Assembly (NCBI RefSeq): GCF_900112765.1 | Contig: NZ_FOMZ01000006.1 | Location: forward strand, 1 to 64,000 | Origin: Actinopolyspora alba | Lineage (GTDB): Bacteria > Actinomycetota > Actinomycetes > Mycobacteriales > Pseudonocardiaceae | Direction: 5' to 3' | Length of the DNA: 64,000 nt | Shown: one piece after another, positions 23,078 to 37,147 of the stretch | Numbering within the stretch: position 1 is the first letter of the stretch | Layout: each line of letters begins with the position of its first letter | Position numbers and translations under genes: made by a program | Notes under the pieces: generated by a model | The model's database searches: none | Told to the model about the DNA's origin: nothing | What the model saw: only the letters and a program-made list of their open reading frames with translations

Positions 23078-23099
23078 CTTTAATGCTGTGGAGGGCCTT

Positions 23100-24059
23100 A
23101 TGACCAGCAGTATCGTCGCCGACACCGTCACCGAAGAGTCCCGTGAGCAACCAACCGTCTCGTTCGAGCAGAGTCTGCCACGTCGCTGGGTCCATCGTGC
23201 CGCGAACACCGAGGTTCTGGTTACCAGTTTCGGTGAACGCGGCGAGAACGATTTCGTGCTGGGGGCACAGTTACCTCGTGCACACGCCCTTTACGGGCCG
23301 GTCGCGGGTGGTCACGATCCTCTCCTGTTCGCGGAGGCGGCGCGGCAGGCAGGGTTGGTCGTGGGACACGTCGGCTTCGGTGTTCCCTACGGGCACCAGT
23401 TCATAATGGACACATTGGATTACGAGGTGGAGCCGGAAGCGCTTCGTCTCGCCGATACTCCCGCCCAGATCGTACTGGAAATTCACTGCGAAAACGTCAA
23501 ACGGCGTGGTAAGACATTCGCCGGGGCGAATATGCACGTGCACGGATATCGTGACGGGGTGTTCGTCGGGAGGGTCACGCTGCCGTACAGTTGCATATCC
23601 CCCGCGGCTTACGCGCGAATTCGGGCAGGCTGTGACGACTTCACCGATACGGCGGATCAGGCGGAACTTCCGGAGCCCGTTCCGCCGTGGCGGGTGGGTC
23701 GTGATTGTCCTTCCGACGTGCTGCTGGCGCCGACGTCTCACGAACGTACCTGGTTGCTGCGGGACGGACGTACGCATCCGGTGCTGTTCGATCACCCGGT
23801 CGATCATGTTCCGGGAATGACCGCTCTGGAAGCGGCGCGCCAAGCCGTACGTTCCGAATTCTGCCCGGACACGGTGCTGCCGGTGGGTATGCGAACCCGC
23901 TTCCACAATTACATCGAGTTGGGACGGTCGTGTTTCGTGCGGGTCCACGACGAGCCGATCGCGGGGGACACCGTGCGGGTGACTCTGGAACAGGAAGGGC
24001 GGGTCGCGGTGGACTCGACCGTACTGGTCCGGCGATTGTCCGACGAAACGAGGCGATGA
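23100..24059 (+). CDS. AfsA-family gamma-butyrolactone (A-factor) biosynthesis protein
   Basis: A 319-residue AfsA/ScbA homologue with the two tandem hotdog-like domains of this family. The first (about 20-170) contains HRAANTEVLVTSF, PRAHALYGPVAGGHDPLLFAEAARQ (in two parts) and GVPYGHQFIMDTLDYE. The second (about 200-315) contains LLRDGRTHPVLFDHPVDHVPGM and ALEAARQA. AfsA joins a beta-keto acyl chain to dihydroxyacetone phosphate, the key step in making gamma-butyrolactone autoregulators. GGAGG lies just before the ATG at 23100; the in-frame GTG at 23088 is less likely. The promoter region holds two ARE-like palindromes shared with the divergent reductase. Receptor, synthase and a possible reductase within 4 kb make a complete signalling cassette. 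Confidence 0.93.
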   Translation: MTSSIVADTVTEESREQPTVSFEQSLPRRWVHRAANTEVLVTSFGERGENDFVLGAQLPRAHALYGPVAGGHDPLLFAEAARQAGLVVGHVGFGVPYGHQFIMDTLDYEVEPEALRLADTPAQIVLEIHCENVKRRGKTFAGANMHVHGYRDGVFVGRVTLPYSCISPAAYARIRAGCDDFTDTADQAELPEPVPPWRVGRDCPSDVLLAPTSHERTWLLRDGRTHPVLFDHPVDHVPGMTALEAARQAVRSEFCPDTVLPVGMRTRFHNYIELGRSCFVRVHDEPIAGDTVRVTLEQEGRVAVDSTVLVRRLSDETRR

Positions 24060-24324: not shown

Positions 24325-25335
24325 CTACTGCTGCTCGGAACCGAAAGCGGCATCGAAAGACGTCGCAGGCGGAGTGAAGTTCAGGTTCCGCACGAATTCC
24401 AGCGCTTCGGGAGCGCCCCGTAGCCGATCCATGCCCGCGTCCTCCCATTCGATGGAAATCGGACCGTCGTAGCCGATCGCGTTGAGCGTGCGGAAGCAGT
24501 CCTCCCAGGGGACGTGGCCGTGCCCGGTGGACACGAAATCCCAGCCACGCCTGGGGTCTCCCCAGGGGAGGTGTGAGCCGAGCACTCCACTGCGGCCGTC
24601 ATTGCTCCTGACACGGGCCTCCTTGCAGTCGACGTGCAGGATTCGGTCCTGAAAGTCCCACAGAAAAGTCACCGGATCGAAGCCCTGCCAAACGTAATGC
24701 GAGGGGTCGAAGTTCAGTCCGAGTGCGGGCCGGTGGTCCACCGCTTCGAGGGTGCGAACCGTGGTCCAGTAGTCGTAGGCGATCTCGGTGGGATGGACCT
24801 CCAACGCGAACCGGACACCACACTCGTCGAACACGTCGAGAATGGGGTTCCAGCGGTCGGCGAACTCCTGGTAGCCACGCTGCACCATTTCGTCGGGAGT
24901 CGGCGGGAACATCGCCACCGTGTACCAGATCGGAGAGCCGGTGAAACCGACGACTTTGTCCACACCGAACTCGGCCGCGGCTCTCGCCGTGTCCCGCATC
25001 CGTTCCGCGGCACGTTGTCGAACACCTTCGGGGTCACCGTCCCCCCAGATCTCCGGGGGAAGGATGTTGCGGTGTCGTTCGTCGATCGGATAATCGCAGG
25101 TGGCCTGTCCGAGCAGGTGGTTCGACAGCACCCAGCAGTTCAGGTCGTGCTTTTCCAACACCTCTCGTTTCCGCCGCACGTAGTCCTTTTCCGCGAGTGC
25201 CCTGTCCACTTCGAAGTGATCACCCCAGCAGGCGATCTCCAGGCCGTCGTATCCCCATTCCGAGGCGAGCCTGGCCACGTCCTCGAACGGCAGGTCGGCC
25301 CACTGGCCGGTGAACAGTGTGATCGGTCGGGGCAT
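24325..25335 (-). CDS. Sugar phosphate isomerase/epimerase (xylose-isomerase-like TIM barrel)
   Basis: A 336-residue AP-endonuclease-2-type TIM barrel starting [20 protein letters not shown]. Likely metal-binding positions are the Glu in [13 protein letters not shown], the Asp/His in [14 protein letters not shown], the His/Asp in ILHVDCKEA and the Glu in [13 protein letters not shown]. Such enzymes isomerise or epimerise keto-sugars or cyclitols such as inosose. The second of two close ATG codons (25335) is chosen because GGAAAGG is then at proper spacing. It is the last gene of the long minus-strand block, 24 bp after the EboF-like gene. There is no signal peptide, so it is cytoplasmic. The substrate is unknown. 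Confidence 0.85.
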
Positions 25336-25359
25336 GATCATCCTTTCCCGTGGTGGTGT

Positions 25360-26772
25360 TCAACGCGTTGTCCGTCGCGGTTCGCGAAGTCCGGAGAGTT
25401 CGAGCAACAGGTCCTTGACTTCCGTGGCGTGGTAACTCTCCCGACCGAAGCGTTCATCGGAGCACAACAGCACCGGTCCGTGGGAGGGGCTGTCCGCGAG
25501 CCTGCCGTGACTGCCGCGAACCGGGGTCGGATCGAGCGGTACCACGTTCATCCGGTACCGCAGTCCCAGTTTCTTCCGGGCCACCGCTGTCGCCGCGCGC
25601 AACCTGACCAGCCGGTCCCGGGGATCCATGAACAGTTCCGCCGGGTCGTAGCCGGGCTTGCGGTGGATCTCCACGTGCGTGGCGAAATCGGGGGCCCGTG
25701 CGTCGTCCAACCAGTAGTAGTAGGTGAACCACGAGTCGGGCTCGGCTACCGCCACCAGGTCACCGGCCCGTTCGTGATCGATGCCGTACCGTTTCTTGCC
25801 CGGGGTGTCGAGAACTTCGTCGACACCGGGCAGCGCGCCGACGACGTCACGTACCCTGGCGAGATCATCAGCGTCCCGAACGTATATGTGCGCCGCCTGA
25901 TGATCAGCGACGGCGAAGGCACGGGAAGTCCACGGATCGAGGTACTCCATGCCCGCCTGGGTGTGTACGTGCAGCAGTCGTTCTCGCCGCAGTGCGCGAT
26001 TGATGTCGATCGGTCGGCTCACCTCTGTCATGCCGTACTCCGACAGGGCCAACACCGTGACTCCTCGCGCTTCCGCACGGTTCAGCAACGGAGCCAACGC
26101 CCTGTCCACCTCCCGTGCCGCCGCCGCGGCTCGGGGACTGTCCGGGCCGTAGCGTTGCAGGTCGTAATCGAGGTGTGGGATGTAGGCCATCGTCAGGTCC
26201 GAGCCGCGGGTGGACAGCAGGTGGCCGGTCGCCTCGGCGATCCAACGGCTGGACTCGATCGAAGCGGTCGGTCCCCAGTAGTTGAACAGCGGAAAGGTCC
26301 CGAACTTGTCGGTGAGCTCGTCACGCAGCGCCGTTGGATAGGTGTAGCAGTCCGGCGACTTGCGTCCGTCCGCATGGTAAACGGGACGAGGGGTCACGGT
26401 CTCGTCGACGTCCATCCCCATCGCGTACCACCAGCAGACGTTGCTGACCCGGTAGCCGGGATCTCGCTCGCGTGCCGCTTGCCAGATCTTTTCGCCGCGC
26501 ACCAGCCCGTTGTACTGGCGCCAGAAGAAGACCTCACCGATGTCACGGAAGAACCAGCCGTTACCGACTATGCCGTGGTCACCGGGATGTCGTCCGGTGA
26601 GCAGACTGGACTGCACCGGACAGGTGACGGCGGGGAACACGGTTTTCAACTCGGCTCGAAAACCACGGCGCGCTATTCGGTCCAGGTTGGGCATGTGTTC
26701 GAGAAGTCGGGGGGTCAAACCCACCACGTCCAGCAGCAGTACCGGAGTACGTGCTTCGGCTGTGTGATTCAT
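25360..26772 (-). CDS. eboF: EboF-like alkaline phosphatase / nucleotide pyrophosphatase superfamily protein
   Basis: A 470-residue protein of the type I phosphodiesterase/alkaline phosphatase superfamily. The first metal site is read in PVLLLDVVGLTPRLLEHMPN with the nucleophile threonine in FPAVTCPVQSSLLTG (about 47). Further metal ligands are in GRHPGDHGIVGNGWF, AYIPHLDYDLQRYG and the late HVEIHRKPGYDP. There is no signal peptide, so it is expected in the cytoplasm. The ATG at 26772 overlaps the EboE stop by 4 bp after GGAGGAAGG. In cyanobacterial ebo clusters EboF is this type of enzyme, and synteny with EboE, EboB, EboA and EboC supports the name. It probably removes a phosphate or nucleotide from the cluster's product. 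Confidence 0.82.
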   Translation of the reverse strand: MNHTAEARTPVLLLDVVGLTPRLLEHMPNLDRIARRGFRAELKTVFPAVTCPVQSSLLTGRHPGDHGIVGNGWFFRDIGEVFFWRQYNGLVRGEKIWQAARERDPGYRVSNVCWWYAMGMDVDETVTPRPVYHADGRKSPDCYTYPTALRDELTDKFGTFPLFNYWGPTASIESSRWIAEATGHLLSTRGSDLTMAYIPHLDYDLQRYGPDSPRAAAAAREVDRALAPLLNRAEARGVTVLALSEYGMTEVSRPIDINRALRRERLLHVHTQAGMEYLDPWTSRAFAVADHQAAHIYVRDADDLARVRDVVGALPGVDEVLDTPGKKRYGIDHERAGDLVAVAEPDSWFTYYYWLDDARAPDFATHVEIHRKPGYDPAELFMDPRDRLVRLRAATAVARKKLGLRYRMNVVPLDPTPVRGSHGRLADSPSHGPVLLCSDERFGRESYHATEVKDLLLELSGLREPRRTTR

Positions 26773-27938
26773 CGACCTTCCTCCGTGAGTCCGAGTTCGA
26801 GCAGTCGGCGCCGGGCCCAATCGAGTTCGGCCGCGATCCCGGAACCGATGCTCGCGGAGTGATCTCCCGAGCCCGGGAGTACGTCCCAGGTGTAGGTCTC
26901 CACCTCCACGTGTCGGGTGTGTGCCGTGTTGCCGCCGAGCAACGAGCGGAGTGTCTCGCCGAGCACGTCATGCGTCCCGCGCAGCGAGGCACTCGGGTCG
27001 GTGTGCAGCGGAGTGTGGAAGTGCACCCGCCACGGTTGATCCCCCGAGAGTTCGCCTGCCAGCGCCGAATCCAGATCATCGACGGCACGCCGGACCCCGT
27101 CACCGCTCTGCTGGGTCTGATGCAGGAACCTGGGTTCCACGAAGGAGTTCAGCTCCGCACGTTGCGCCGGGTCGCCGGGGTTGTCCACCCGAAGCGCGGA
27201 GGACGCCTGCGCTTTGACCACCGGCAGGCCGGCTTCGCGCAGCCGTCGCAGCGCTCGGTGCGGGTTTTCGAACGCCACGGCCACGTGGCAGGTGTCCAGA
27301 CAGATCCCGAGGTGCTCGGTGTCCGTTCCGGACAGCGCGGAAACGAGCTGATCGGTCGTCTCCAGCACGCATCCCGGCTCGGGCTCCAACCCGACCCGCA
27401 CCGAACGTCCCTCTCGCGCGGCTAGTCGAGCGAGCCCGTCGGTCAGTTCGGTCAGATGCGTCAGGGCTCGGTTGTGGTGGTGTTCCGACCACCACGCGCC
27501 CCATCCCAACGGTAGCGTGGAGACGCTGCCGCTGGTGACGTCTTCGGGTAGCAGTTGGGACAGTAGTTTCGCCAAGTCGAGTGTGTAGTCCAGTCTCGCG
27601 CGCTCGGACCAGTCGGGCCGGTACACCGCGTGTTTGACCACCGCTCGTTGGAACCCCCGATAGGGGAAACCGTTCAGCGTCACCACTTCCAAGCCCCGTG
27701 CCACCAGCTCGGTGCGCAGTCGGGCCAGCGCGGTGTCGTCCTCGACCAACGCGGTGGCCACGTCCCGTGCCAACCACAGTCCCAGACCGAGCCGTTCGAC
27801 GCCCAGCCGTCGGCGTATCGGTACGGCGTAGCGGTCGAACTGAGCGATGATGCCGTCGAGATCTTCCGCTGGATGCACGTTGGTGCAGTAGGCCAGGTGT
27901 ACGGTTGATCCGTCACGATGACGAAATCGCATGATCAC
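26769..27938 (-). CDS. eboE: EboE-like metabolite traffic protein (TIM-barrel)
   Basis: A 389-residue xylose-isomerase-like TIM-barrel of the EboE group. Group features visible are LAYCTNVHPAEDLDGIIAQF at the start, LNGFPYRGFQRAVVKHAVY (about 88-106), STLPLGWGAWW (about 140-150), GLEPEPGCVLETT and GICLDTCHVAVAFE. The extended Asn/His-rich opening separates EboE from ordinary sugar isomerases. GTG at 27938 overlaps the EboB stop by 4 bp; ATG at 27932 is possible. Studies in Nostoc punctiforme tied the ebo cluster to getting a scytonemin precursor to the periplasm; the chemical role of EboE itself is not known. Here it lies centrally in an eight-gene chain of overlapping frames. Confidence 0.85.
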   Translation of the reverse strand: MIMRFRHRDGSTVHLAYCTNVHPAEDLDGIIAQFDRYAVPIRRRLGVERLGLGLWLARDVATALVEDDTALARLRTELVARGLEVVTLNGFPYRGFQRAVVKHAVYRPDWSERARLDYTLDLAKLLSQLLPEDVTSGSVSTLPLGWGAWWSEHHHNRALTHLTELTDGLARLAAREGRSVRVGLEPEPGCVLETTDQLVSALSGTDTEHLGICLDTCHVAVAFENPHRALRRLREAGLPVVKAQASSALRVDNPGDPAQRAELNSFVEPRFLHQTQQSGDGVRRAVDDLDSALAGELSGDQPWRVHFHTPLHTDPSASLRGTHDVLGETLRSLLGGNTAHTRHVEVETYTWDVLPGSGDHSASIGSGIAAELDWARRRLLELGLTEEGR

Positions 27939-28795
27939 CGTTTCCCGCGTTCGATGGAGTTTCCCGCGAAAGTGGTGCCGTCACCGTCCCCGAGCGCGGA
28001 TGTCTCCGTGCGCAGTCGACCACTCTGCCCGTAGAATCCGACCGGGTTCGACCAGAAAACAGTGTCAACCGCGGCCGGTTCGAAACCGGCGGCCAGCATC
28101 GCGTGCGCGGTTTTGCTCGTTTTCAGCGGATCGCTCTTGCCCCAGTCGGCCGCCGAATTGACCAGCATCCGTTCCACGCCGTACCCGCGCATTATCCGAA
28201 CCATCCGGTCCTCGTCCATCTTGGTGTCCGGATAGATCGAAAACCCCATCCAGCAGCCCGATTCCGCCACGGCTTCGACGGTTACCTCGTTGAGGTGATC
28301 GACGACGACACGTTCGACGGGGATGCCGGACTCCCGGATCACATCGAGGCTGCGCCGCGTCCCGGCCTCCTTGTCCCGGTGCGGGGTGTGTACGAGCACC
28401 GGTAACTCGTGCTCGGCTGCCAGTTCCAGCTGAGCGGCGAAGGCGTCGTCCTCCTCGGTGGTCATGGCGTCGTAACCGAGCTCGCCCACCGCCACCACGC
28501 CGTCCTTGGCCAGGTAACGGGGCAGTACCTCCAGTACGTCACGGCATCTGGGGTCGTTGGCCTCCTTCGGATTGAGACCGATGGTGCAGTGATGCGCGAT
28601 ACCGTACTGCGAAGCTCGGAACGGTTCCCATCCGATCAGACCGTCGAAGTAGTCCACGAAGGTTCCCACCGAGGTGCGTGGCTGCCCCACCCAGAAGGAA
28701 GGCTCGACCAGGGCCCTCACTCCTGCCCGGTACATCGCGTCATAGTCGTTCGTGGTCCGCGAGCTCATGTGGATGTGCGGATCGAAAATGCGCAT
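27935..28795 (-). CDS. eboB: EboB-like TatD-family metal-dependent hydrolase
   Basis: A 286-residue TatD-type amidohydrolase-fold protein. The metal motif is FDPHIHMSSRTT (about 4-15). Other likely ligands are the Glu in VAVGELGYDAM, the His in LPVLVHTPHRDKE, the His in VVVDHLNEVT and the Asp in LVNSAADWGKSDPL. Unlike DNA-acting TatD nucleases, this branch occurs next to EboA and EboC in ebo clusters, so a small-molecule substrate is likely. Two consecutive ATG codons overlap the EboA stop; the second (28795) has GGAGG at good spacing. A longer open frame up to 29320 runs through EboA in another reading frame and is not used. Confidence 0.85.
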   Translation of the reverse strand: MRIFDPHIHMSSRTTNDYDAMYRAGVRALVEPSFWVGQPRTSVGTFVDYFDGLIGWEPFRASQYGIAHHCTIGLNPKEANDPRCRDVLEVLPRYLAKDGVVAVGELGYDAMTTEEDDAFAAQLELAAEHELPVLVHTPHRDKEAGTRRSLDVIRESGIPVERVVVDHLNEVTVEAVAESGCWMGFSIYPDTKMDEDRMVRIMRGYGVERMLVNSAADWGKSDPLKTSKTAHAMLAAGFEPAAVDTVFWSNPVGFYGQSGRLRTETSALGDGDGTTFAGNSIERGKR

Positions 28796-29466
28796 CATGC
28801 CTCCTCGGCGGGGTGGAGTTGTGCCGGGTCCACGACCAGCCACACGTCGTTGGGGATCTCCCGTCCGGCCGCGCTGCGCTCCCTGGCGTAGTCGGTGAGC
28901 ATGCGTGCCAGCTCGGCGTCGGCACGTTCCGGCACTCCGGAGACGTCCCGTAGTGGAATTCCGAGGAACACGCACTTGAGCACGCCCTGCCGGTAAGCGG
29001 GTGCGTCGAGATGACGGGCGCCGAACTCGGCCATTCCCGCTGCGATCAAACCGGTGTCGTTGCTGCGCAACGCGTCCCGTACCAACGGCAGTCCGGCATC
29101 CACCAGCTCCGCTTCCTCCCGGAGCACACCCGCACCTCGCAGTACGCCGCGTTTCTCCGCGGCATCGCCGTACCGGTACAGCGCGCTGATCTCCGTTCCC
29201 AGCTCGGAACCAGTCGACGGCAGCGCCGTCAGCAGCAACGCACGCACCGCGTCCTCGCTGCTCCAGGTCCGCAGTGTTCCGGACTCGGCCGCATCGTCGA
29301 CGAGCGGGCCACGACCGCATTTCCTGCCGGCCGCGGGAAAGAGAGTGCCGATCGCACGCGCCCCCGTGGCGATGTCCGTCAGTGCCTCGTCCAACCAGCG
29401 TCCCGCGGTCTCGTCGATCCGCTCGTCGAGCGCGGCACGCAGTTCGGCCGGATTCGGAGCGGTCAT
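28795..29466 (-). CDS. eboA: EboA domain protein
   Basis: A 223-residue alpha-helical protein matching the EboA type: RWLDEALTDIATGARAIGTLFPAAGRKCGR (about 22-52 in parts), TWSSEDAVRALLLTALP, ISALYRYGDAAEKRGVLRGAGVL and NDTGLIAAGMAEFGARHLD, then CVFLGIPL. The helical-repeat look suggests a scaffold or binding protein rather than an enzyme. ACGGAGGTGACAGC precedes the ATG at 29466, which overlaps the upstream isomerase stop by 4 bp; its own stop overlaps EboB. Function is unknown in any organism. The name rests on both sequence pattern and gene neighbours. Confidence 0.8.
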   Translation of the reverse strand: MTAPNPAELRAALDERIDETAGRWLDEALTDIATGARAIGTLFPAAGRKCGRGPLVDDAAESGTLRTWSSEDAVRALLLTALPSTGSELGTEISALYRYGDAAEKRGVLRGAGVLREEAELVDAGLPLVRDALRSNDTGLIAAGMAEFGARHLDAPAYRQGVLKCVFLGIPLRDVSGVPERADAELARMLTDYARERSAAGREIPNDVWLVVDPAQLHPAEEA

Positions 29467-30371
29467 GCTGTCACCTCCGTGGCTGCCTGTCGAAGAAAAC
29501 GCAGCGAGCGCTGTGCCACGGCGGGCGCGGCGTGGCTGTGTCTGGGTAGTTCCACGGAGACCAGACCGCGGTAGCCCACCTCGCGCAGCGCGGCCATCAC
29601 CGGTGGGAAATCGATGTCGCCCTCGCCGAACTCCAGGTGTTCGTGCACGCCACGTCGCATGTCGTCGATCTGGACGTTGACCAGGTCCGGGCCGGCACGG
29701 CGTACGCACGCCGGTACGTCCACGGGTTCCAGACAGCGGCAGTGCCCGATGTCCAGCGTCACCCCGAACAGCTCGGGGTGGTTCAACTTCGCCGCCAGCT
29801 GTTCGAAACCGTCCAGGTCCTGGACGAACATGCCGGGCTCCGGCTCGAAACCCAGCTTCACGCCGTACTCGGCGGCGGTGTCGAGAACCTCCGAACAACC
29901 TTCGACCAGCAGCGACCACGCCGTTTCGTCGTCGAGGTGGTCGGGCTTCGTGCCGCTCCAGAACGAGACGACCCCGGCTCGCAGTTGTGCCGCGATGTGT
30001 ACCGCGCGGTGCAGCAGGTCGAGACGCAGTGCTCGGCCGGGTTCCGACAGCAGCGTCGGATGGTGCTTGTGTCGCGGATCGAGCAGATAGCGTGCGCCCG
30101 TTTCCACCACCGCGTCGAGTTCCAGTCGTTCCAGATCTCGTCTTAACCGTGCGGTGTGTTCGGCCACGTCCGGGTGAAACGGATCGAGATGGTCGTGATC
30201 GAGCGTTACCGCGACTCCGTCGTATCCCTGCTCGGCCAGGATCTCCAGCGAATCCGTCAGCCGGTGGTTGTCGAATCCGTTCGTGCCGTATCCGAAACGC
30301 AGTGTCCGATCGGAGCCGGAGCGCTTCGGCAGCGCCGTCGCGTTTGTGGGGAAGGAACCGATTTCGCTCAT
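29463..30371 (-). CDS. Sugar phosphate isomerase/epimerase within the ebo operon
   Basis: A 302-residue TIM-barrel of the xylose-isomerase-like superfamily. After a 25-residue variable start it reads RFGYGTNGFDNHRLTDSLEI. Candidate metal ligands are the Glu in VKLGFEPEPGMFV, the Asp/His in GVTLDIGHCRCLE, the Asp in VNVQIDDMRRG and the Glu in LVSVELPRHSH. It overlaps EboC upstream and EboA downstream by 4 bp each, so it is an integral member of the operon. Cyanobacterial ebo clusters have only EboE of this fold, so a second barrel is a distinctive part of this version. A cyclitol or keto-sugar substrate would suit the neighbouring inositol-phosphate-synthase-like gene, but this is inference. 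Confidence 0.83.
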   Translation of the reverse strand: MSEIGSFPTNATALPKRSGSDRTLRFGYGTNGFDNHRLTDSLEILAEQGYDGVAVTLDHDHLDPFHPDVAEHTARLRRDLERLELDAVVETGARYLLDPRHKHHPTLLSEPGRALRLDLLHRAVHIAAQLRAGVVSFWSGTKPDHLDDETAWSLLVEGCSEVLDTAAEYGVKLGFEPEPGMFVQDLDGFEQLAAKLNHPELFGVTLDIGHCRCLEPVDVPACVRRAGPDLVNVQIDDMRRGVHEHLEFGEGDIDFPPVMAALREVGYRGLVSVELPRHSHAAPAVAQRSLRFLRQAATEVTA

Positions 30372-31258
30372 GTCGGTGACACCCGTCCGAAGAGTCGTCG
30401 CGCGATCGGGAAAAGCGTCAGGACGGTGGCCGCCCGCCGTGGAGCTCCTCTCCCCGCGGTCAGCGTCGCTTGCAGCGGGATCATCCCGAGAATTCCGGCG
30501 CTGGTGGCTTGTCGCAGTCGTGCCGGGCTCGGGTCGCGGAGAGCTTGCAGCTGAGCGGTTCCGGTCGTACTCGCGTAGACGGCCAGCGCCGCCGACATCG
30601 TGGCCCCGGCGAGGTCGTGCCGCGATTCCGGACTCCCTACCGCGGTCATCCGGATCGCTCGCGGGAGAAGCGCTGCGACGATCGTGCTCGTCACCGTCAG
30701 CGCGACCCCGGGAACCCGTCGAGACGCTCCGCTGACCTCCGCACGCCCCACCGTGCTGACGCCGAAGGTGTGCGCACCGATGGCGGCGGCCGCCGGTGCC
30801 GCGTCGCGGAAACCACCGGGTCCGGCGCCGTGCAGCACGTCGAGTGCGCGCGCGGCGGCCATCGTGGCGGGACCGGCCGGAGTCCGCTTCAATCCCAGGT
30901 TGTAGCCCCAGACCGTGCCCGCCAGCGGTACGGTGACGCGCAGGGTCCGCCTGCCGCAGGAGAGCGCGGCGATCGTCGTGGCCAAGCCCGTGAACGAGAT
31001 CGCCAGGCCCAGCGCGAGCCCGGGCGGAACCCGGCCGGACGGGATCGGCCTCGCCGGTCGCTCAGCCGCGTCGACCTCCCGGTCGGCGTAGTCGTTGAGC
31101 GCCATGCCCGCCCAGTACAACAAGCACGAGGACAACATCAGCATCGTCGTCTGCCGGGACGGGTGTCGTGCGGCGGATCCGGCCGCTACGTCACCGGGCA
31201 CGGACAGCGCGGCCGGAGCGCGTACGAGTTCCACCAGTGTCCGAATTCGCACTGTCAT
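30368..31258 (-). CDS. eboC: EboC-like UbiA-family prenyltransferase
   Basis: A 296-residue integral membrane protein of the UbiA superfamily. The first Asp-rich motif is NDYADREVDAAERPARPIPSG (about residues 54-73, Mg-diphosphate binding), and seven to nine hydrophobic helices follow. The second Asp-rich motif normally seen in UbiA is weak here: GSPESRHDLAGATMSAALAV, with only one Asp, at about 216. UbiA enzymes transfer a polyprenyl chain to a ring acceptor at the membrane. In ebo clusters EboC is thought to prenylate or help export the pathway product. It overlaps the inositol-phosphate-synthase-like gene upstream and the isomerase downstream by 4 bp each. Confidence 0.85.
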   Translation of the reverse strand: MTVRIRTLVELVRAPAALSVPGDVAAGSAARHPSRQTTMLMLSSCLLYWAGMALNDYADREVDAAERPARPIPSGRVPPGLALGLAISFTGLATTIAALSCGRRTLRVTVPLAGTVWGYNLGLKRTPAGPATMAAARALDVLHGAGPGGFRDAAPAAAAIGAHTFGVSTVGRAEVSGASRRVPGVALTVTSTIVAALLPRAIRMTAVGSPESRHDLAGATMSAALAVYASTTGTAQLQALRDPSPARLRQATSAGILGMIPLQATLTAGRGAPRRAATVLTLFPIARRLFGRVSPT

Positions 31259-32439
31259 CCCTCCTTGAGCCGTTCGACGAAGGAACGCAGCGCTTCGAAC
31301 TGGGCCACCAACCGATGCTCTTCAGAGGACACCGGATCCTTGAAGAAGAAGCCGAGCTGGGGAAGCGGACCGGAGTGCCCGCGTTCGTGTGCCCGTGCCA
31401 GCAGCCTGGCCAGGTCGAGTACCAGTGGTGCTGCCAGGGCGGAGTCGCGGCCCTGCCAGGTGAACTGCATGCTCATGCCGTTACCCAGAAACCCCTCGAA
31501 GGAGATGTGGTCCCAGGCGGTTTTCCATTCTCCGAGGGCGGGGACGTAGTCGATGTGCACGTCCCCGTCGACCGAATGCCCCAGCGACTCGTCGATGGCA
31601 CGTTGCTTCGAGGTGGTTTTGCTGGTCACGTTGTTCGGGTCGGCGAGGTTGCGTCCGTCACCACCGCCGAGCAGATTGGTGCCGGACCAGGACCGGACGT
31701 GTAGCGCGCGGCTGGAGAACATCGGCAGCAGCGCGCTTTTGACCAGCGTCTCGCCGGTTTTGCCGTCGCTGCCCGCGTATGGCACCCGTTGTTCCGTGGC
31801 CAGTTGGTCCAGCGCTGGTAACCGAGCTCCGACGGAGGGCGTGAAGTCGGCGTACGGACAACCCGCTCGCAGGGCCGCGTAGGCGTAGAGCGAGCTCGGT
31901 GGAAGTGGTCCTCCTTCGGACGGATCGGGATGCCGCAGCCCGTTCTCCAGCTCTTCGAGGTCGGCGTGTTCACGCCGGGGCGGTGGGTGTGCTTCGGTGG
32001 CTGCCACATTGATCACCACGACGCGGGACAGCCCGTACAACTCCCGGAAGGAACACAGCTGTTGGGTCAGCTGTTCGGCCGCTTCCAGCTGGTCGTGGCG
32101 TTCGTCCGCGGTGCCGATACCGGGCCGGATCCGGTTGTCCGCGGCCGTGAGATCGGTGTGAACCAGTTCGCGCAGTCCGCGCGGCAGTACGCCCCCCGCC
32201 TCGAGCTGCTCGGCCCGCTTCGGTAGTGGCGTGTCGGTGATGTCGTGCCCGGCGAACACCAGTCGGTCGAATCCGGGCATCCCGGGGTCCATGAGTTCCG
32301 GTGATTCGGTGACGCAGCCGGTGGGGGGAATCAGCCGGTCGCGCAGTGCCGCCGCGCCCGTGATCGCCGTGGTCGCGACCGATCCCCGGGCGCCGATGAG
32401 CCAGACTCCGGTACGTCCGTCGCTGTCGGGACTCGTCAA
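31255..32439 (-). CDS. myo-Inositol-1-phosphate synthase family protein
   Basis: A 394-residue member of the inositol-3-phosphate synthase family. The NAD-binding start is VWLIGARGSVATTAITGAAAL (about 11-30). A catalytic-domain phrase SWSGTNLLGGGDGRNLADP (about 264-282) is followed by NNVTSKTTSKQRAID, which aligns with the NNDGxNL...SK segment of Ino1. The late lysine region reads GFFFKDPVS. Ino1 enzymes cyclise glucose 6-phosphate to inositol phosphate using bound NAD. The start is TTG at 32439, seven bases after GAGGAGGG; upstream in-frame codons have no signal. It is the first gene of the ebo-type chain and overlaps EboC by 4 bp. Divergence from textbook Ino1 suggests a dedicated cyclase for this pathway rather than the housekeeping enzyme. 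Confidence 0.8.
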   Translation of the reverse strand: MTSPDSDGRTGVWLIGARGSVATTAITGAAALRDRLIPPTGCVTESPELMDPGMPGFDRLVFAGHDITDTPLPKRAEQLEAGGVLPRGLRELVHTDLTAADNRIRPGIGTADERHDQLEAAEQLTQQLCSFRELYGLSRVVVINVAATEAHPPPRREHADLEELENGLRHPDPSEGGPLPPSSLYAYAALRAGCPYADFTPSVGARLPALDQLATEQRVPYAGSDGKTGETLVKSALLPMFSSRALHVRSWSGTNLLGGGDGRNLADPNNVTSKTTSKQRAIDESLGHSVDGDVHIDYVPALGEWKTAWDHISFEGFLGNGMSMQFTWQGRDSALAAPLVLDLARLLARAHERGHSGPLPQLGFFFKDPVSSEEHRLVAQFEALRSFVERLKEG

Positions 32440-32576: not shown

Positions 32577-35500
32577 TCACTTGCCGATGTCGGAACGCCC
32601 GGCGGCGCTCATGATCCGACCCTTGTCACGTCCGGAGATGACATCGTCCGCCAGCAGATCGTTCGTCACCCGATCCACGTGGGACACGAACTTCCCGTGG
32701 TCGCCGTAACCGGCCTGCTCGTCGATCAGGTCGTTGATCGTGCAACCGTTCCCGGAATCACGGTTGGTGACGCCGGTGTCGTCGGAGCCGATCATCACGG
32801 TTTTCCGCAGGTCCGAACCAGGACAGGAGTCGGGCTTGATCTCGAAGGCGAACGTGCCCACCTTCGAGGTGTTGCCCGCCTCGTCCGTGGCCCGGTACCG
32901 CACGGTGTGCTCGCCCGCGCCCCGCACGGTCACCGGTTCCGCGTAGTCGGTCCAGCCCTTCTCGTCCACGCGGTACTCCACGCCGGCCACTCCGGACCCG
33001 CTGTCCGAGGACTCCAGGGTGACGCTCACGGGAGTGTTGTAGGTTCCCGCGTACTCGCCGTGCGGATCACCGTTGGGCTCGGCGGGGGAGGGGACGGCCG
33101 AGACCTTCGGCGCGGTCACGTCGATGCTCTCGTCGACACGGACGTTGCGGAAGGCGACCGTGTCCTCGTCACCGTGGTTCTGCAGCCCGATGTGGCCGTT
33201 GCTCAGGTCGACGTTCTGGTCGTCGTCGACCCAGTGGGTGATCCGCGCACCGTTGAGGTGGACCGTGATCGACTGTTCGGTCACGACGATCTCGTAGGTG
33301 TTCCACTCACCGGCAGGGTTCAACGCGGCGTCGCGTTTCGCCTGGTCGGGAGCCTGTTCGTCGTAGATCGCCCCGGTCTGGTTCGCCGGGTCGTCGGTGG
33401 GGTCTATCTGGATCTCCTCACCGTTGTTGACAGCCGACCAGGGATCGTTTCCCGGGTCGGGGAAGCCGACGAACACCCCGGAGTTGTCCTGGTCGGACAG
33501 CTTCCAGTCGAGCTTCAACGAGTAGGGTGCCGTGAACTGCCGGTCGCCCAACCAGTACAGCCCCATGCCGCCGGTCGAACGCAGCGTGCATTCCTGGGTG
33601 TGCTCGAATCCGCCGGGACCGGCCTGGTTCCAACCGTTCATGCTGGCCGCGGTGCCGTCGAACAGGCTGGTGTAGCCCTGTTCGGGTCGCACCGGTTCGC
33701 AGTTCGGCGCGGCTTCGGAGCTGCTCAGGTGCATCGAGTCCACGTCGAACAGGCCACCCGAACCGCTGCCCGTGAACACCAGGAACAGCTCGTCCGAGCC
33801 ACCCGGATCGGTCACCGGCACGGGGCCGACCTCGGTGTAGGTGCCCCAACCGCCGGTGTTGGGCACATCGGCGGTGGCCACCACCGGGCCGTCCGGCGCA
33901 CCGGAGCGCACCTCGATCGTACCGCCCGGACCACCCGAGGAGACTCGGAACGTGGCCGATCGGATCCCATCGAGGTTGTACGGAGTGAACGAGATCCAGT
34001 CACCCGACTGGATGTGCCCGACCCTGGCACCGGCCTCGGCACCCGCACTGTCCTCCACGAGCTGCACGCCGTTGCTGTCGTCGAAGAACTCCGCCTGCTT
34101 GCTCGCCGGCTGCATGATGATCTCGGCGGAGCCGGTCAGAGCGGGCGCCTGCTCGGTGGGCGAGGTGTCGGTGTAGCTGGCGTTGAGCACACCGTAGATG
34201 TCGGCGCCCTGGTGACCGTCCGTGTTGGAGGTTTCGATGGTCCCGCTGCAGCCGTCGGCCTCGCTCAACGGGTGCCCGTGCGAGTCGTTGCCGGTGGAGT
34301 GTCCCAGGATGTACTCCACGTGCACCTTCGAGCAGTCGACCGCCGTGCCGTCCGGGTCGGTGACCGAGATCTCGTAGTTGATCGTGTCCCCGAACTCGAA
34401 CACCTTGCCCGCCGCGGGCCGTTGGAACGTCACGCTGGGAGCGGTGTTGCCCACCACCACGGTTTCACTGGCCGAACCGGTTTTGCCGGTCTGGTCGGTG
34501 ACGGTCAGCGTGGCGGTGTGCTCGCCGTCCGAGGTGTAGGTGTGCGTGGGGGCGGATTCGGTGCTGTCGGTCTGCCCGTCCCCGTCGAAGTCCCACGCGT
34601 AGCTCAGCGAGTCACCCTGATCCGGATCCGAGGATCCCTTCGACGAGAAGTCGACCTCCAACGGTGCCTGACCGTTCGTCGGTTCGGCCGAGATCTGCGC
34701 GGTGGGGGCTCGTCCGTCACGGGTGTAGTCGATCCGGTACACGGCCGAGTCCTCGGCGCCGCCGAAGTAACCACTGCCGTAGTCGAGTACGTACAGCGAA
34801 CCGTTCGGGCCGAACTCGATGTCCATCGGACGGGTCAACGTCATCGAGGGGAAGAAGTCCTCGATCCGCGACGGCTGACCGTTCGAGTCCGGAGTGATCG
34901 TCTTGATCCAGCCGCGCCCCCACTCGTAGGCGAAGAACTTCCCGTCGTAGGAGGACGGCAGCTTCGTTGCGGAGGGATTGTCGGCGTCGTAGTGGTAGAC
35001 CGGTCCACCCATGGGCGACTCGCTGCCCGAGCCGAGCTCGGGAACCGAGCCGTCGTTGTAGGGCAACCACGCGGGCTTCGCGGTGGGCAGCTGCGTGAGC
35101 CCGTCGTTGTTGGGGGACTCGTTGACCGGATTGGCGCAGTCGAACTCGCCGTTGGAGTTACCGGTGGCGAAGTCGTAGTCGTGGTAGGCCTTGTTGTCGC
35201 CCACGCAGTAGGGCCAACCGTGGAAGCCGGGCTCGGTGACCCGTTCGTACTCCACGATGCCGGCCGGGCCGCGCTGCGGATCGGCGGTCGCGGCGTCGGG
35301 ACCGTAGTTGCCCACGTAGACCGTGCCGGTCCGCTGATCGACCGAGATCCGGTAGGGGTTGCGGAAACCCATCGCGTAGATCTCGTCGCGGGTCTTGTCA
35401 CTGTTGTCCCCGGCGAACAGGTTGTCCTGCGGGACGCTGTAGGAACCGTCCGAGGCGACATCGATCCGCAGTACCTTGCCGCGCAGGTCATTGGTGTTGC

Positions 35501-36920
35501 CCGCGGTGCGCTGCGCGTCGAAGGCCGGGTTGCGGTTGCCGCGTTCGTCGATCGGGGTGTACCCGCTCGACTGGAAGGGGTTCGAGTCGTCCCCGGTGGA
35601 CAGATACAGCGAGCCCTCGGGGCCGAAGGCGATGTCCCCACCCACGTGGCAGCACATGCCGCGGGTGGCGTCCACCCGCATGATCCGCTGCTCGCTGCTC
35701 ATGTCGAGGGTGCCGTCCTGGGCGAGCTTGAAGCGCGAGAGCTGGTTGTAGCCCTGCCACTCCTCGAACGTCGCCGGATCGTCGGCAGTGGCGGGGGCAT
35801 CTCCCGAGGGAGTGTTCAACGGGGGCGCGTAGTAGAGGTAGACCCACCGGTTCTGCTCGAAGTTCGGATCGATCTCCAGCGACTGCAGACCTTCCTCGTC
35901 GTGGGTGTAGACGGGGATGTCGGCAGCCACTGAGGTGTTGCCGGACGAGGTCGTGTAGTACAGCGTGCCCTGGCGCTCGCTGTGCAGCACATCGCCGTTC
36001 GGCAGTACCGCCATGCCCATGGGCTCGCCGACCTCGTCGGCCGTTTTCGCCAGTGTCACCTGGTTGAGAGTCCCCTCCGCCGCGGCCTCGCCGCAGTCGG
36101 CCGAGACAGCGCCCGCCGCGGTTCGAATGCCGCCCGCGAGATGGTTCAGGAAGTTCTGGTTCGAGAAGGACGCGGTGGTGTGTCCCATTCCCGTGTACCA
36201 GGAACGGCCACCCTGATAGGGCTGGCACCAGCTGATCGGGTGGTCCTCGCCCATCGAGCCGCCGTCGTAGGTGGACTCGTCCAGCGTGCTCAACACGTGC
36301 ACGTCCTCGCGCGGATTGGGCGAGTAGTTGTACCACTCGTCGGTGCGAGTCCACTCCTTCGGCAGCGAGGACGTCGAGGGGTGCTCGGAGTCGGTGACGT
36401 TGACGGTGGCTTCCTGAACGGCCGGGTGCGAGTCGAAGTAGGCCCCGACGAGGTCGCCGTAGAACGACCAGTCGTACTCGGTGTCCGCCGCCGCGTGCAC
36501 ACCGGCGTAACCGCCGCCGTTGTTGATGTATTTCTCGAAGGCCGCCTGTTGCGCCGTGTTGAGCACGTCACCGGTGGTGGACAACCACACGACCGCCTCG
36601 TACTGCTTGAGGTTGTCGTAGGTGAAGGCCGATGCGTCCTCGGTAGCGGTCACTCCGAAGTGGTGCTCGTCGCCGAGCTGTTTCACCGCCTCGATGCCGG
36701 CCGGGATGGAACCGTGTCGGTAACCGGCGGTCTTCGAGAAGACCAGTACGTCGAACTCCTGGTGCTTCGGGGTGACATCCGCCGCGGAGTCGGTGTTGTT
36801 CGTGGCGGTCGTGGAATCGTCGGACCTGGCGGCGGCGGGCGCGCCGAACGCGATCATGGTTCCGACGAGAAGTATGGTGCTGAATGTCGCCGCTAACGCT
36901 CTACGTAATAACGGTGGCAC
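32577..36920 (-). CDS. Giant secreted ThuA / sugar dehydrogenase / PKD / CBM6 / DUF1080 protein
   Basis: A 1447-residue exported protein. Visible modules: signal peptide (about 1-32, ending APAAA); ThuA-like domain (about 55-265; VLVFSKTAGYRHGSI, GGGYAGVHAAADTEYDW); PQQ-type glucose/sorbosone dehydrogenase propeller (about 285-735; GMAVLPNGDVLHSER, GCCHVGG-like MCCHVGGDIAFGP, RNPYRISVD); PKD domain (about 738-825; SYAWDFDGDG); an Ig-like stretch; CBM6 (about 935-1065); DUF1080 3-keto-disaccharide hydrolase-like domain (about 1080-1265); a bacterial Ig/OmpL47-like repeat (about 1268-1362); and a helical C-terminal tail. ThuA and DUF1080 both belong to 3-keto-glycoside metabolism. GTG at 36920 follows AGGGAG; ATG at 36944 is the alternative. 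It lies 137 bp before the ebo-type chain and is probably co-transcribed with the sugar genes. Confidence 0.88.
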   Translation of the reverse strand: MPPLLRRALAATFSTILLVGTMIAFGAPAAARSDDSTTATNNTDSAADVTPKHQEFDVLVFSKTAGYRHGSIPAGIEAVKQLGDEHHFGVTATEDASAFTYDNLKQYEAVVWLSTTGDVLNTAQQAAFEKYINNGGGYAGVHAAADTEYDWSFYGDLVGAYFDSHPAVQEATVNVTDSEHPSTSSLPKEWTRTDEWYNYSPNPREDVHVLSTLDESTYDGGSMGEDHPISWCQPYQGGRSWYTGMGHTTASFSNQNFLNHLAGGIRTAAGAVSADCGEAAAEGTLNQVTLAKTADEVGEPMGMAVLPNGDVLHSERQGTLYYTTSSGNTSVAADIPVYTHDEEGLQSLEIDPNFEQNRWVYLYYAPPLNTPSGDAPATADDPATFEEWQGYNQLSRFKLAQDGTLDMSSEQRIMRVDATRGMCCHVGGDIAFGPEGSLYLSTGDDSNPFQSSGYTPIDERGNRNPAFDAQRTAGNTNDLRGKVLRIDVASDGSYSVPQDNLFAGDNSDKTRDEIYAMGFRNPYRISVDQRTGTVYVGNYGPDAATADPQRGPAGIVEYERVTEPGFHGWPYCVGDNKAYHDYDFATGNSNGEFDCANPVNESPNNDGLTQLPTAKPAWLPYNDGSVPELGSGSESPMGGPVYHYDADNPSATKLPSSYDGKFFAYEWGRGWIKTITPDSNGQPSRIEDFFPSMTLTRPMDIEFGPNGSLYVLDYGSGYFGGAEDSAVYRIDYTRDGRAPTAQISAEPTNGQAPLEVDFSSKGSSDPDQGDSLSYAWDFDGDGQTDSTESAPTHTYTSDGEHTATLTVTDQTGKTGSASETVVVGNTAPSVTFQRPAAGKVFEFGDTINYEISVTDPDGTAVDCSKVHVEYILGHSTGNDSHGHPLSEADGCSGTIETSNTDGHQGADIYGVLNASYTDTSPTEQAPALTGSAEIIMQPASKQAEFFDDSNGVQLVEDSAGAEAGARVGHIQSGDWISFTPYNLDGIRSATFRVSSGGPGGTIEVRSGAPDGPVVATADVPNTGGWGTYTEVGPVPVTDPGGSDELFLVFTGSGSGGLFDVDSMHLSSSEAAPNCEPVRPEQGYTSLFDGTAASMNGWNQAGPGGFEHTQECTLRSTGGMGLYWLGDRQFTAPYSLKLDWKLSDQDNSGVFVGFPDPGNDPWSAVNNGEEIQIDPTDDPANQTGAIYDEQAPDQAKRDAALNPAGEWNTYEIVVTEQSITVHLNGARITHWVDDDQNVDLSNGHIGLQNHGDEDTVAFRNVRVDESIDVTAPKVSAVPSPAEPNGDPHGEYAGTYNTPVSVTLESSDSGSGVAGVEYRVDEKGWTDYAEPVTVRGAGEHTVRYRATDEAGNTSKVGTFAFEIKPDSCPGSDLRKTVMIGSDDTGVTNRDSGNGCTINDLIDEQAGYGDHGKFVSHVDRVTNDLLADDVISGRDKGRIMSAAGRSDIGK

Positions 36921-37147
36921 GGTGTCTCCCTCTGTAGACAGCATGCTGCTTCGGTTTCGAATACTGGTTGCGCGACAGGTTTTCTTTCCCGGACTCGGCA
37001 TCTCCGATACGGCCGGTTTCCGATTCCCGTTCCGGGGCGGTTCCGGGCCGCCGCGGGAAGCGGGGAATCCGGCTGACCGGCTTCACGGGTATGACGGGTC
37101 CGACGGAACAACTCGATCGAGAGATCGATCGGAATCCCGGACCGTGC

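Follow-up and report, generated by a model that had tools for sequence, protein, structure and literature searches.

An ebo-type operon of Actinopolyspora alba with an inositol-phosphate-synthase-like cyclase in the place of EboD

An operon related to the bacterial ebo genes lies on the minus strand within the first 64,000 nucleotides of contig NZ_FOMZ01000006.1 of Actinopolyspora alba (assembly GCF_900112765.1), a stretch that is referred to here as the window. Its seven frames occupy positions 25360-32439, as a first-pass annotation made from the sequence alone had reported; they show no internal stops, have GC3 values of 0.77-0.80, and overlap by 4 bp at 6 of 6 junctions, in agreement with the overlaps described in that annotation. 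The first frame encodes Ino1L (31255..32439), a myo-inositol-phosphate-synthase-like cyclase of 394 residues with domains PF07994 and PF01658 and a TTG start behind the motif GAGGAGG. It is followed by EboC (30368..31258), a UbiA-family prenyltransferase of the SCO3242 family (PF01040, NF045897); TIM3 (29463..30371), a xylose-isomerase-like TIM barrel (PF01261) that accompanies Ino1L; EboA (28795..29466; NF035938, 157.2 bits against a cut-off of 50); EboB (27935..28798), a TatD-like metal-dependent hydrolase (PF01026); EboE (26769..27938), a further TIM barrel (NF035939, 434.3 bits, cut-off 250); and EboF (25360..26772), of the type I phosphodiesterase / nucleotide pyrophosphatase family (PF01663). 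Two of the starts have alternatives: eboE shows a second ATG two codons past its GTG, which would abolish one overlap, and Ino1L, if started at the in-frame GTG at 32580, would be longer and overlap the preceding gene (32577..37001). EboB and EboF are 39-58% and 44-53% identical to their counterparts in seven EboD-type loci. The gene order of the operon was found again in most of 80 related Ino1L loci, and the arrangement is therefore more than chance.

The ebo operon, eboA to eboF, was named in 2016, and in the part of that report consulted here an isoprenoid-cyclitol product was proposed from the place of EboD in its family tree (PMC5133447). The operon of the window has in common with the one outlined there the clustered EboA, EboB, EboC-like protein, EboE and EboF, and differs from it in carrying Ino1L and TIM3 instead of EboD. 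The absence of EboD, already pointed out in the first-pass annotation, was borne out: none was found in the operon, and none in the whole assembly (42 contigs, 99.76% complete), so that a hidden copy outside the window, the case that the annotation had named as fatal to its view, was looked for without success. Two proteins of the DHQS family are encoded in this genome. The one on contig 19 is taken as AroB, while the one on contig 17 is EEVS-like, with 4p53 as its best relative in the Protein Data Bank (PDB; 395.7 bits); it shows 29-34% identity to three EboD proteins, against 43-61% for EboD proteins among themselves. The profile NF004852 (cut-off 333) was chosen as EboD detector because the EboD proteins of Ketogulonicigenium and of genome G381 (G and L numbers denote our genomes and loci) score 544 and 563; on it the EEVS-like protein reaches 227.8 bits. 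Its gene (L005, 8113-9342, outside the window) lies in a cluster of its own with frames for a ROK kinase and for oxidoreductase-like proteins, probably a separate C7-cyclitol pathway of the same genome.

Ino1L carries both domains of myo-inositol-phosphate synthase (MIPS) above their cut-offs (PF07994, 152.4 bits; PF01658, 114 bits). It had been described in the first-pass annotation as a sugar-phosphate cyclase like EboD, which stands as far as the reaction is concerned but not for the family, since Pfam detected the MIPS domains only and no DHQ_synthase domain (PF01761). Its best PDB relative is the MIPS of Archaeoglobus fulgidus (1u1i; E 2.8e-66, residues 59-439 of a query of 441), with Ino1 of M. 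tuberculosis (1gr0, E 1.5e-11) far behind; among the matches listed, the nearest named one comes from Actinopolyspora righensis (97%). Four lysines, K274, K278, K306 and K367, align with 1u1i and are invariant in 20 of 20 rows of an alignment built from 20 of the 22 Ino1L proteins then available (those of L040 and L065, with long C-terminal tails, were excluded). In A. fulgidus MIPS these columns are, we assume, the ones that hold the catalytic lysines, and in the structure 3qvw alanine replaces one of the four. As judged from its sequence, then, Ino1L is an archaeal-type MIPS homologue with intact catalytic-type residues. The A. fulgidus enzyme, to which it is similar over the full length and in the four lysines, is a stand-alone archaeal protein, unlike the operon-borne Ino1L; another MIPS homologue engaged in special metabolism, the five-membered-cyclitol-phosphate synthase 6k96, presumably of the aristeromycin pathway, is much more remote (E 3e-12).

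The housekeeping enzyme is encoded separately. On TIGR03450, the family of the actinobacterial housekeeping Ino1 (cut-off 638), a protein of contig 27 reaches 650.7 bits and Ino1L falls short with 36.9; therefore Ino1L is not the strain's housekeeping Ino1, and the other objection foreseen in the first-pass annotation, that it might be the only such enzyme of the strain, is ruled out. In an Ino1 tree of 39 rows (trees were built on subsets of the loci, and L215 yielded no row in this one), 16 ebo-linked actinobacterial Ino1L proteins fall into one branch (99/98) together with five from loci that lack core ebo genes. Seven of eight second-copy Ino1 proteins are set apart by a branch of length 4.12 (100/100), and the remaining one, from G075, groups with a Bacteroidota protein; two Halomarina proteins fall within the haloarchaeal branch. 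A single origin of all the ebo Ino1L proteins was rejected by the approximately unbiased (AU) test with p 0.0003, a weak result as the tested group omitted the two Halomarina proteins.

The exchange of Ino1L for EboD recurs across the phylum. EboE was detected above cut-off in 18 of 396 genomes, at 19 places, of which 17 have Ino1L, one has EboD (G381, also the only genome of the 396 above the NF004852 cut-off) and one has neither (L042, a second copy in G128, a genome that also holds an Ino1-type ebo copy). In the class to which G381 belongs, five of 249 genomes have EboE, four of them new: G601 with EboD, G513 and G591 with Ino1L, and G585 with a lone EboE. All five genomes belong to one bacterial family (f43), which thus comprises two EboD-type loci, two Ino1-type loci and one orphan EboE. 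Altogether, the 22 EboE-positive genomes of the phylum divide into 19 with Ino1L, two with EboD, one with neither and none with both. A comparable division was seen in plasmids, where EboE occurs in 48 of 72,556 records (47 with a second EboE query): 29 have Ino1L, 15 EboD, four neither and none both, although these counts are not independent because many of the Streptomyces plasmids are near-copies. Ino1L was counted here at 42% identity or more and, by printed positions, within about 5 kb of EboE, and EboD when adjoining EboE with a limit of 1e-60. From the side of the prenyltransferase, NF045897 is above cut-off in 11 of 246 genomes, weak matches aside; at the 11 places found besides the window's own copy, Ino1L stands directly upstream in 10.

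A third sample consisted of the best 80 Ino1L loci of at least 579 confirmed relatives, taken from a scan in which each species was represented by one genome; by title all 80 are from Actinomycetota, as a similarity ranking favours, and some are cut short at their ends. They contain EboC in 72, EboB in 72, TIM3 in 70, EboE in 69, EboF in 68, EboA in 59 and EboD in none. When only the 72 loci with at least 8 kb downstream are considered, the numbers are 64 for EboC, 67 for EboB, 66 for TIM3, 64 for EboE, 63 for EboF and 55 for EboA. An oddity of the strain or an artefact of its assembly was rejected, given that the same arrangement is present in many related loci and genomes. The counts in genomes and plasmids strongly support the earlier proposal of an Ino1-like cyclase as the stand-in for EboD; the exchange is systematic, and among the actinomycetote genomes sampled the form with Ino1L is the usual one. 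In G279 an EboE match below cut-off lies in two pieces (L068, 6681-11637) with no Ino1L or TIM3 seen nearby, and the locus may be decayed.

The exchange replaces one gene by two, because TIM3 comes with Ino1L. TIM3 was the best match in none of the seven EboD-type loci, nor in L217, and Ketogulonicigenium, of the EboD type, has a different TIM barrel at this place. Residues E176, D207, H210 and E274 do not vary across the 22 rows aligned (22 of 23 TIM3 proteins, that of L040 being excluded), and sugar epimerases and isomerases predominate among the solved relatives, which include IolI and IolE. In Roseomonas and Methylobacterium, Ino1L (37-38% identity) and TIM3 (45-47%) lie within about 6 kb of each other, with no ebo core gene found. 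Because TIM3 stands beside Ino1L even where ebo genes are lacking, its substrate is most likely what Ino1L makes. Clusters of Ino1 and a TIM barrel of this non-ebo kind were observed at L205 (6977-14329), L209 (6001-12809) and L214 (4545-10723); in those of Roseomonas and Hymenobacter, YcaO and Gfo/Idh/MocA genes lie between the two, and a Hymenobacter plasmid shows annotated Ino1, YcaO and sugar-phosphate isomerase genes in a row.

The prenyltransferase EboC scores 339.8 bits on NF045897, 'SCO3242 family prenyltransferase' (cut-off 260), and lies below the stricter cut-off of NF035940, 'EboC' (105.7 versus 250 bits). All 103 rows, the window included, keep the first aspartate motif intact, and by its motifs the protein belongs to the EboC kind within the UbiA superfamily and is not a canonical UbiA. 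An aspartate in the RxxD motif, present in 91 of 95 ungapped rows of the Ino1 type (defined as the rows closest to the window's EboC, L042 among them) versus 0 of 7 of the EboD type, was considered as a mark of the Ino1 type; it was dropped because the Nostoc EboC, of the EboD type, is reported with Arg142 and Asp145 in the part of PMC6282210 consulted, and because this position holds S in Gemmatirosa and N in three haloarchaeal proteins.

Clusters of this sort are also found beyond Actinomycetota. Gemmatirosa (Gemmatimonadota) has Ino1L, TIM3, EboC, EboB, EboF, EboE and TIM8, a second TIM barrel also found next to the operon of the window, and no EboD. All five haloarchaeal records with an Ino1L match were inspected, and three of them, from plasmids of Halobaculum (L207, 2106-8656), Natronococcus (L210, 3939-10612) and Halocatena (L211, 4238-10539), hold an ebo-like cluster, the two from Halomarina being without one. 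In these three, Ino1L (44%) lies beside EboB (43-47%) and EboF (34-39%), together with an EboC-like prenyltransferase, which in Halobaculum is below both NCBIfam cut-offs, and two TIM3-like proteins (28-31%); EboA and EboE were not recognised in the three clusters, and EboD is absent from them. In Natronococcus, a GSDH protein 33% identical to the ThuA/GSDH protein of the window adjoins the cluster, and in Halocatena there is an annotated ThuA-domain protein that gives no BLAST match to it. By gene content and homology the haloarchaeal clusters appear to be an archaeal relative of the Ino1-type ebo operon. In the trees, haloarchaeal EboC falls outside the actinobacterial branch and that of Gemmatirosa inside (97/95), at the split between the Ino1 and EboD types when haloarchaea are left out, while Gemmatirosa EboF and EboE group with the EboD type. 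A grouping of Gemmatirosa with the actinobacterial Ino1 type is rejected by the AU test for EboB (0.0004), borderline for EboF (0.049) and not rejected for EboE (0.157), and a clean chimera in this organism is only partly supported. Because of these mixed tests, several separate exchanges of Ino1L for EboD are suggested but not proven.

Parts of this arrangement had been recorded before. SCO3242 of Streptomyces coelicolor belongs to the same prenyltransferase family as the EboC of the window (NF045897); in the part of PMC3610822 available here, SCO3242 appears as a putative transferase and SCO3243 as a myo-inositol phosphate synthase, both counted to the CDA cluster by annotation and without a link to ebo. 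In PMC5133447, as far as consulted, a few operons without EboD were accepted as ebo and a fusion of actinobacterial EboA with a xylose-isomerase-like domain was noted; 'inositol' has no occurrence in the main text of that paper. Ubi-297/EboC of Flavobacteria is, as in the window, a UbiA-type prenyltransferase within an ebo cluster (PMC9235831); in the corresponding excerpt of that paper the actinobacterial genus Saccharomonospora is among the ebo carriers, the assays concern Bacteroidota enzymes and aromatic substrates, EboD is in the cluster, and inositol goes unmentioned. In the open-access literature, with subscription journals and preprints outside its scope and most papers judged by their titles and the opening of their abstracts, no paper was found that describes an inositol-phosphate synthase within an ebo operon. 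The pair of Ino1L and prenyltransferase was thus known by annotation, and the Ino1-type ebo operon itself appears to be new.

Gene content, homology, the intact catalytic-type residues, the exclusion of EboD, the linkage of TIM3 and the recurrence in other phyla are observed; the substrates, order of steps, product and role of the pathway proposed from them are predictions. We consider it fairly probable that Ino1L and TIM3 replace EboD as the source of a cyclitol head group, which would define a second, Ino1-type ebo operon. Ino1L would convert glucose 6-phosphate to myo-inositol 1-phosphate or a close cyclitol phosphate, and TIM3 would isomerise, epimerise or dehydrate this product or a corresponding keto form; the same slot belongs, in other ebo operons, to EboD, for which cyclitol formation from sedoheptulose 7-phosphate has been proposed. 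EboC would then add a prenyl chain to the cyclitol. The product of MIPS retains its phosphate. EboF would cleave a phosphate ester; EboB and EboE would modify or finish the head group, and keeping the set together may be the part of EboA. The pathway would end in a prenyl-cyclitol, anchored in the membrane, that assists the extracytoplasmic processing of metabolites made in the cytoplasm, and it is a fair guess that it serves as a carrier or helper lipid. The cyclitol idea rested until now on the place of EboD in its family, and the reaction of Ino1 is far better understood than that of EboD; an unrelated cyclitol-forming enzyme that occupies the EboD slot repeatedly is therefore independent support for a cyclitol head group. 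Since the expected precursor, inositol, can be obtained labelled, the product could be sought in hosts that are easy to work with, Streptomyces among them. Within Actinomycetota the variant is widespread, with some copies lying by antibiotic-type clusters, so it may matter for the making or export of natural products.

Several observations weigh against this proposal. The sampled loci are mutually related, so that the counts are not independent. No core ebo gene was found in 5 of the 80 Ino1L loci (L154, L158, L162, L168 and L186), and neither cyclase is present at L042, with the lone EboE of G585 or in four plasmid records, from Streptomyces NBC_01562, NBC_01340, NBC_01244 and S. fungicidicus (a fragment at the record end). 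Of these four records, two (L203, 8149-11531; L204, 8162-11338) show only EboB, EboE and EboF, and a third (L059, 8995-10173) has EboE as its sole ebo gene, within a type II polyketide cluster. The second DxxxD motif of EboC is not at the aligned place, in the Ino1 and EboD types alike (103 rows). In vitro, flavobacterial EboC relatives farnesylate quinoline-type aromatics and not a cyclitol, according to the part of PMC9235831 consulted, which leaves the natural substrate of EboC unfixed. Finally, genome G268 has its ebo Ino1L as sole PF01658 match, and this protein might also serve housekeeping. Upstream at L042 (10912-13808), an amine-oxidase-like frame and, at a distance of two genes, an inositol-monophosphatase-family frame were observed; the latter, a single case, would agree with inositol chemistry.

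The G268 case and the five loci devoid of core ebo genes would also be expected if Ino1L merely fed the general inositol supply (mycothiol, phosphatidylinositol or an osmolyte) and were co-transcribed with ebo by convenience. We regard this as unlikely, since in 17 of 19 Ino1-type genomes a further PF01658 match lies beyond the operon (the others being G268 and the 82% complete G318), and since a general supply leaves unexplained both the exclusion of EboD and the constant place of Ino1L at the head of the operon.

Another explanation comes from the genes that flank the seven frames on the same strand. TIM8 (24325..25341), a second PF01261 TIM barrel, starts 18 bp after eboF, and a protein of 1474 residues with ThuA, GSDH, PKD, CBM6 and 3-keto-disaccharide-hydrolase domains by Pfam (32577..37001) ends 137 bp before the TTG of Ino1L; by eye its N-terminus looks like a secretion signal. 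The operon probably includes both, the latter as its possible first gene. It could accordingly be asked whether the whole serves extracellular sugar oxidation or breakdown via 3-keto intermediates, with ebo and ino1 in support. The domains of the large protein speak for this, as does the recurrence near Ino1L of homologues of it (50 of 80 loci) and of TIM8 (32 of 80), even though the ThuA domain (PF06283) occurs once in the window's genome, in this very protein; likewise no such homologue was seen in the seven EboD-type loci or L217, and the Natronococcus cluster is adjoined by a GSDH protein. Nevertheless, in 30 of 80 loci there is no ThuA/GSDH homologue within the inspected flanks, and many actinobacterial ebo loci have other settings, such as the type II polyketide cluster with the lone EboE or the CDA cluster (PMC3610822, part consulted), and we consider this explanation improbable.

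A bolder and similarly doubtful possibility is that ebo is a modular system with interchangeable ring-makers, and that a prenylated inositol acts as membrane-bound helper or redox cofactor of extracellular beta-propeller oxidoreductases in bacteria and archaea, the partners being the ThuA/GSDH protein here and ScyD/ScyE-type proteins elsewhere; if so, the published 'transport' phenotype of Nostoc could in part reflect a missing cofactor. That the EEVS-like protein of contig 17 provides the EboD function in trans, Ino1L being no replacement, has its presence in the genome in its favour and is very hard to credit given its distance from EboD in identity and NF004852 score, its own cluster with the ROK kinase, and the fact that among 17 Ino1-type genomes PF01761 is matched just once in eight and not at all in one (82% complete).

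Some neighbouring genes deserve mention. A gene of the ScyD/ScyE family, known from the scytonemin pathway, adjoins the Ino1-type ebo operon of Streptomyces camelliae (L049, 3227-4429), and two matches to this family lie by that of Thermomonospora echinospora (L127, the one locus of the 80 with such a match). Near EboD-type ebo genes, a hypothetical protein and a ferritin-like protein are encoded in Aureibacter, Mycetohabitans and Gloeothece (L054, 2043-5103; L056, 3051-6069; L216, 10855-14136). In the window, an AfsA-type gene, related to gamma-butyrolactone synthesis, lies beyond TIM8 on the opposite, plus strand (23088-24059).

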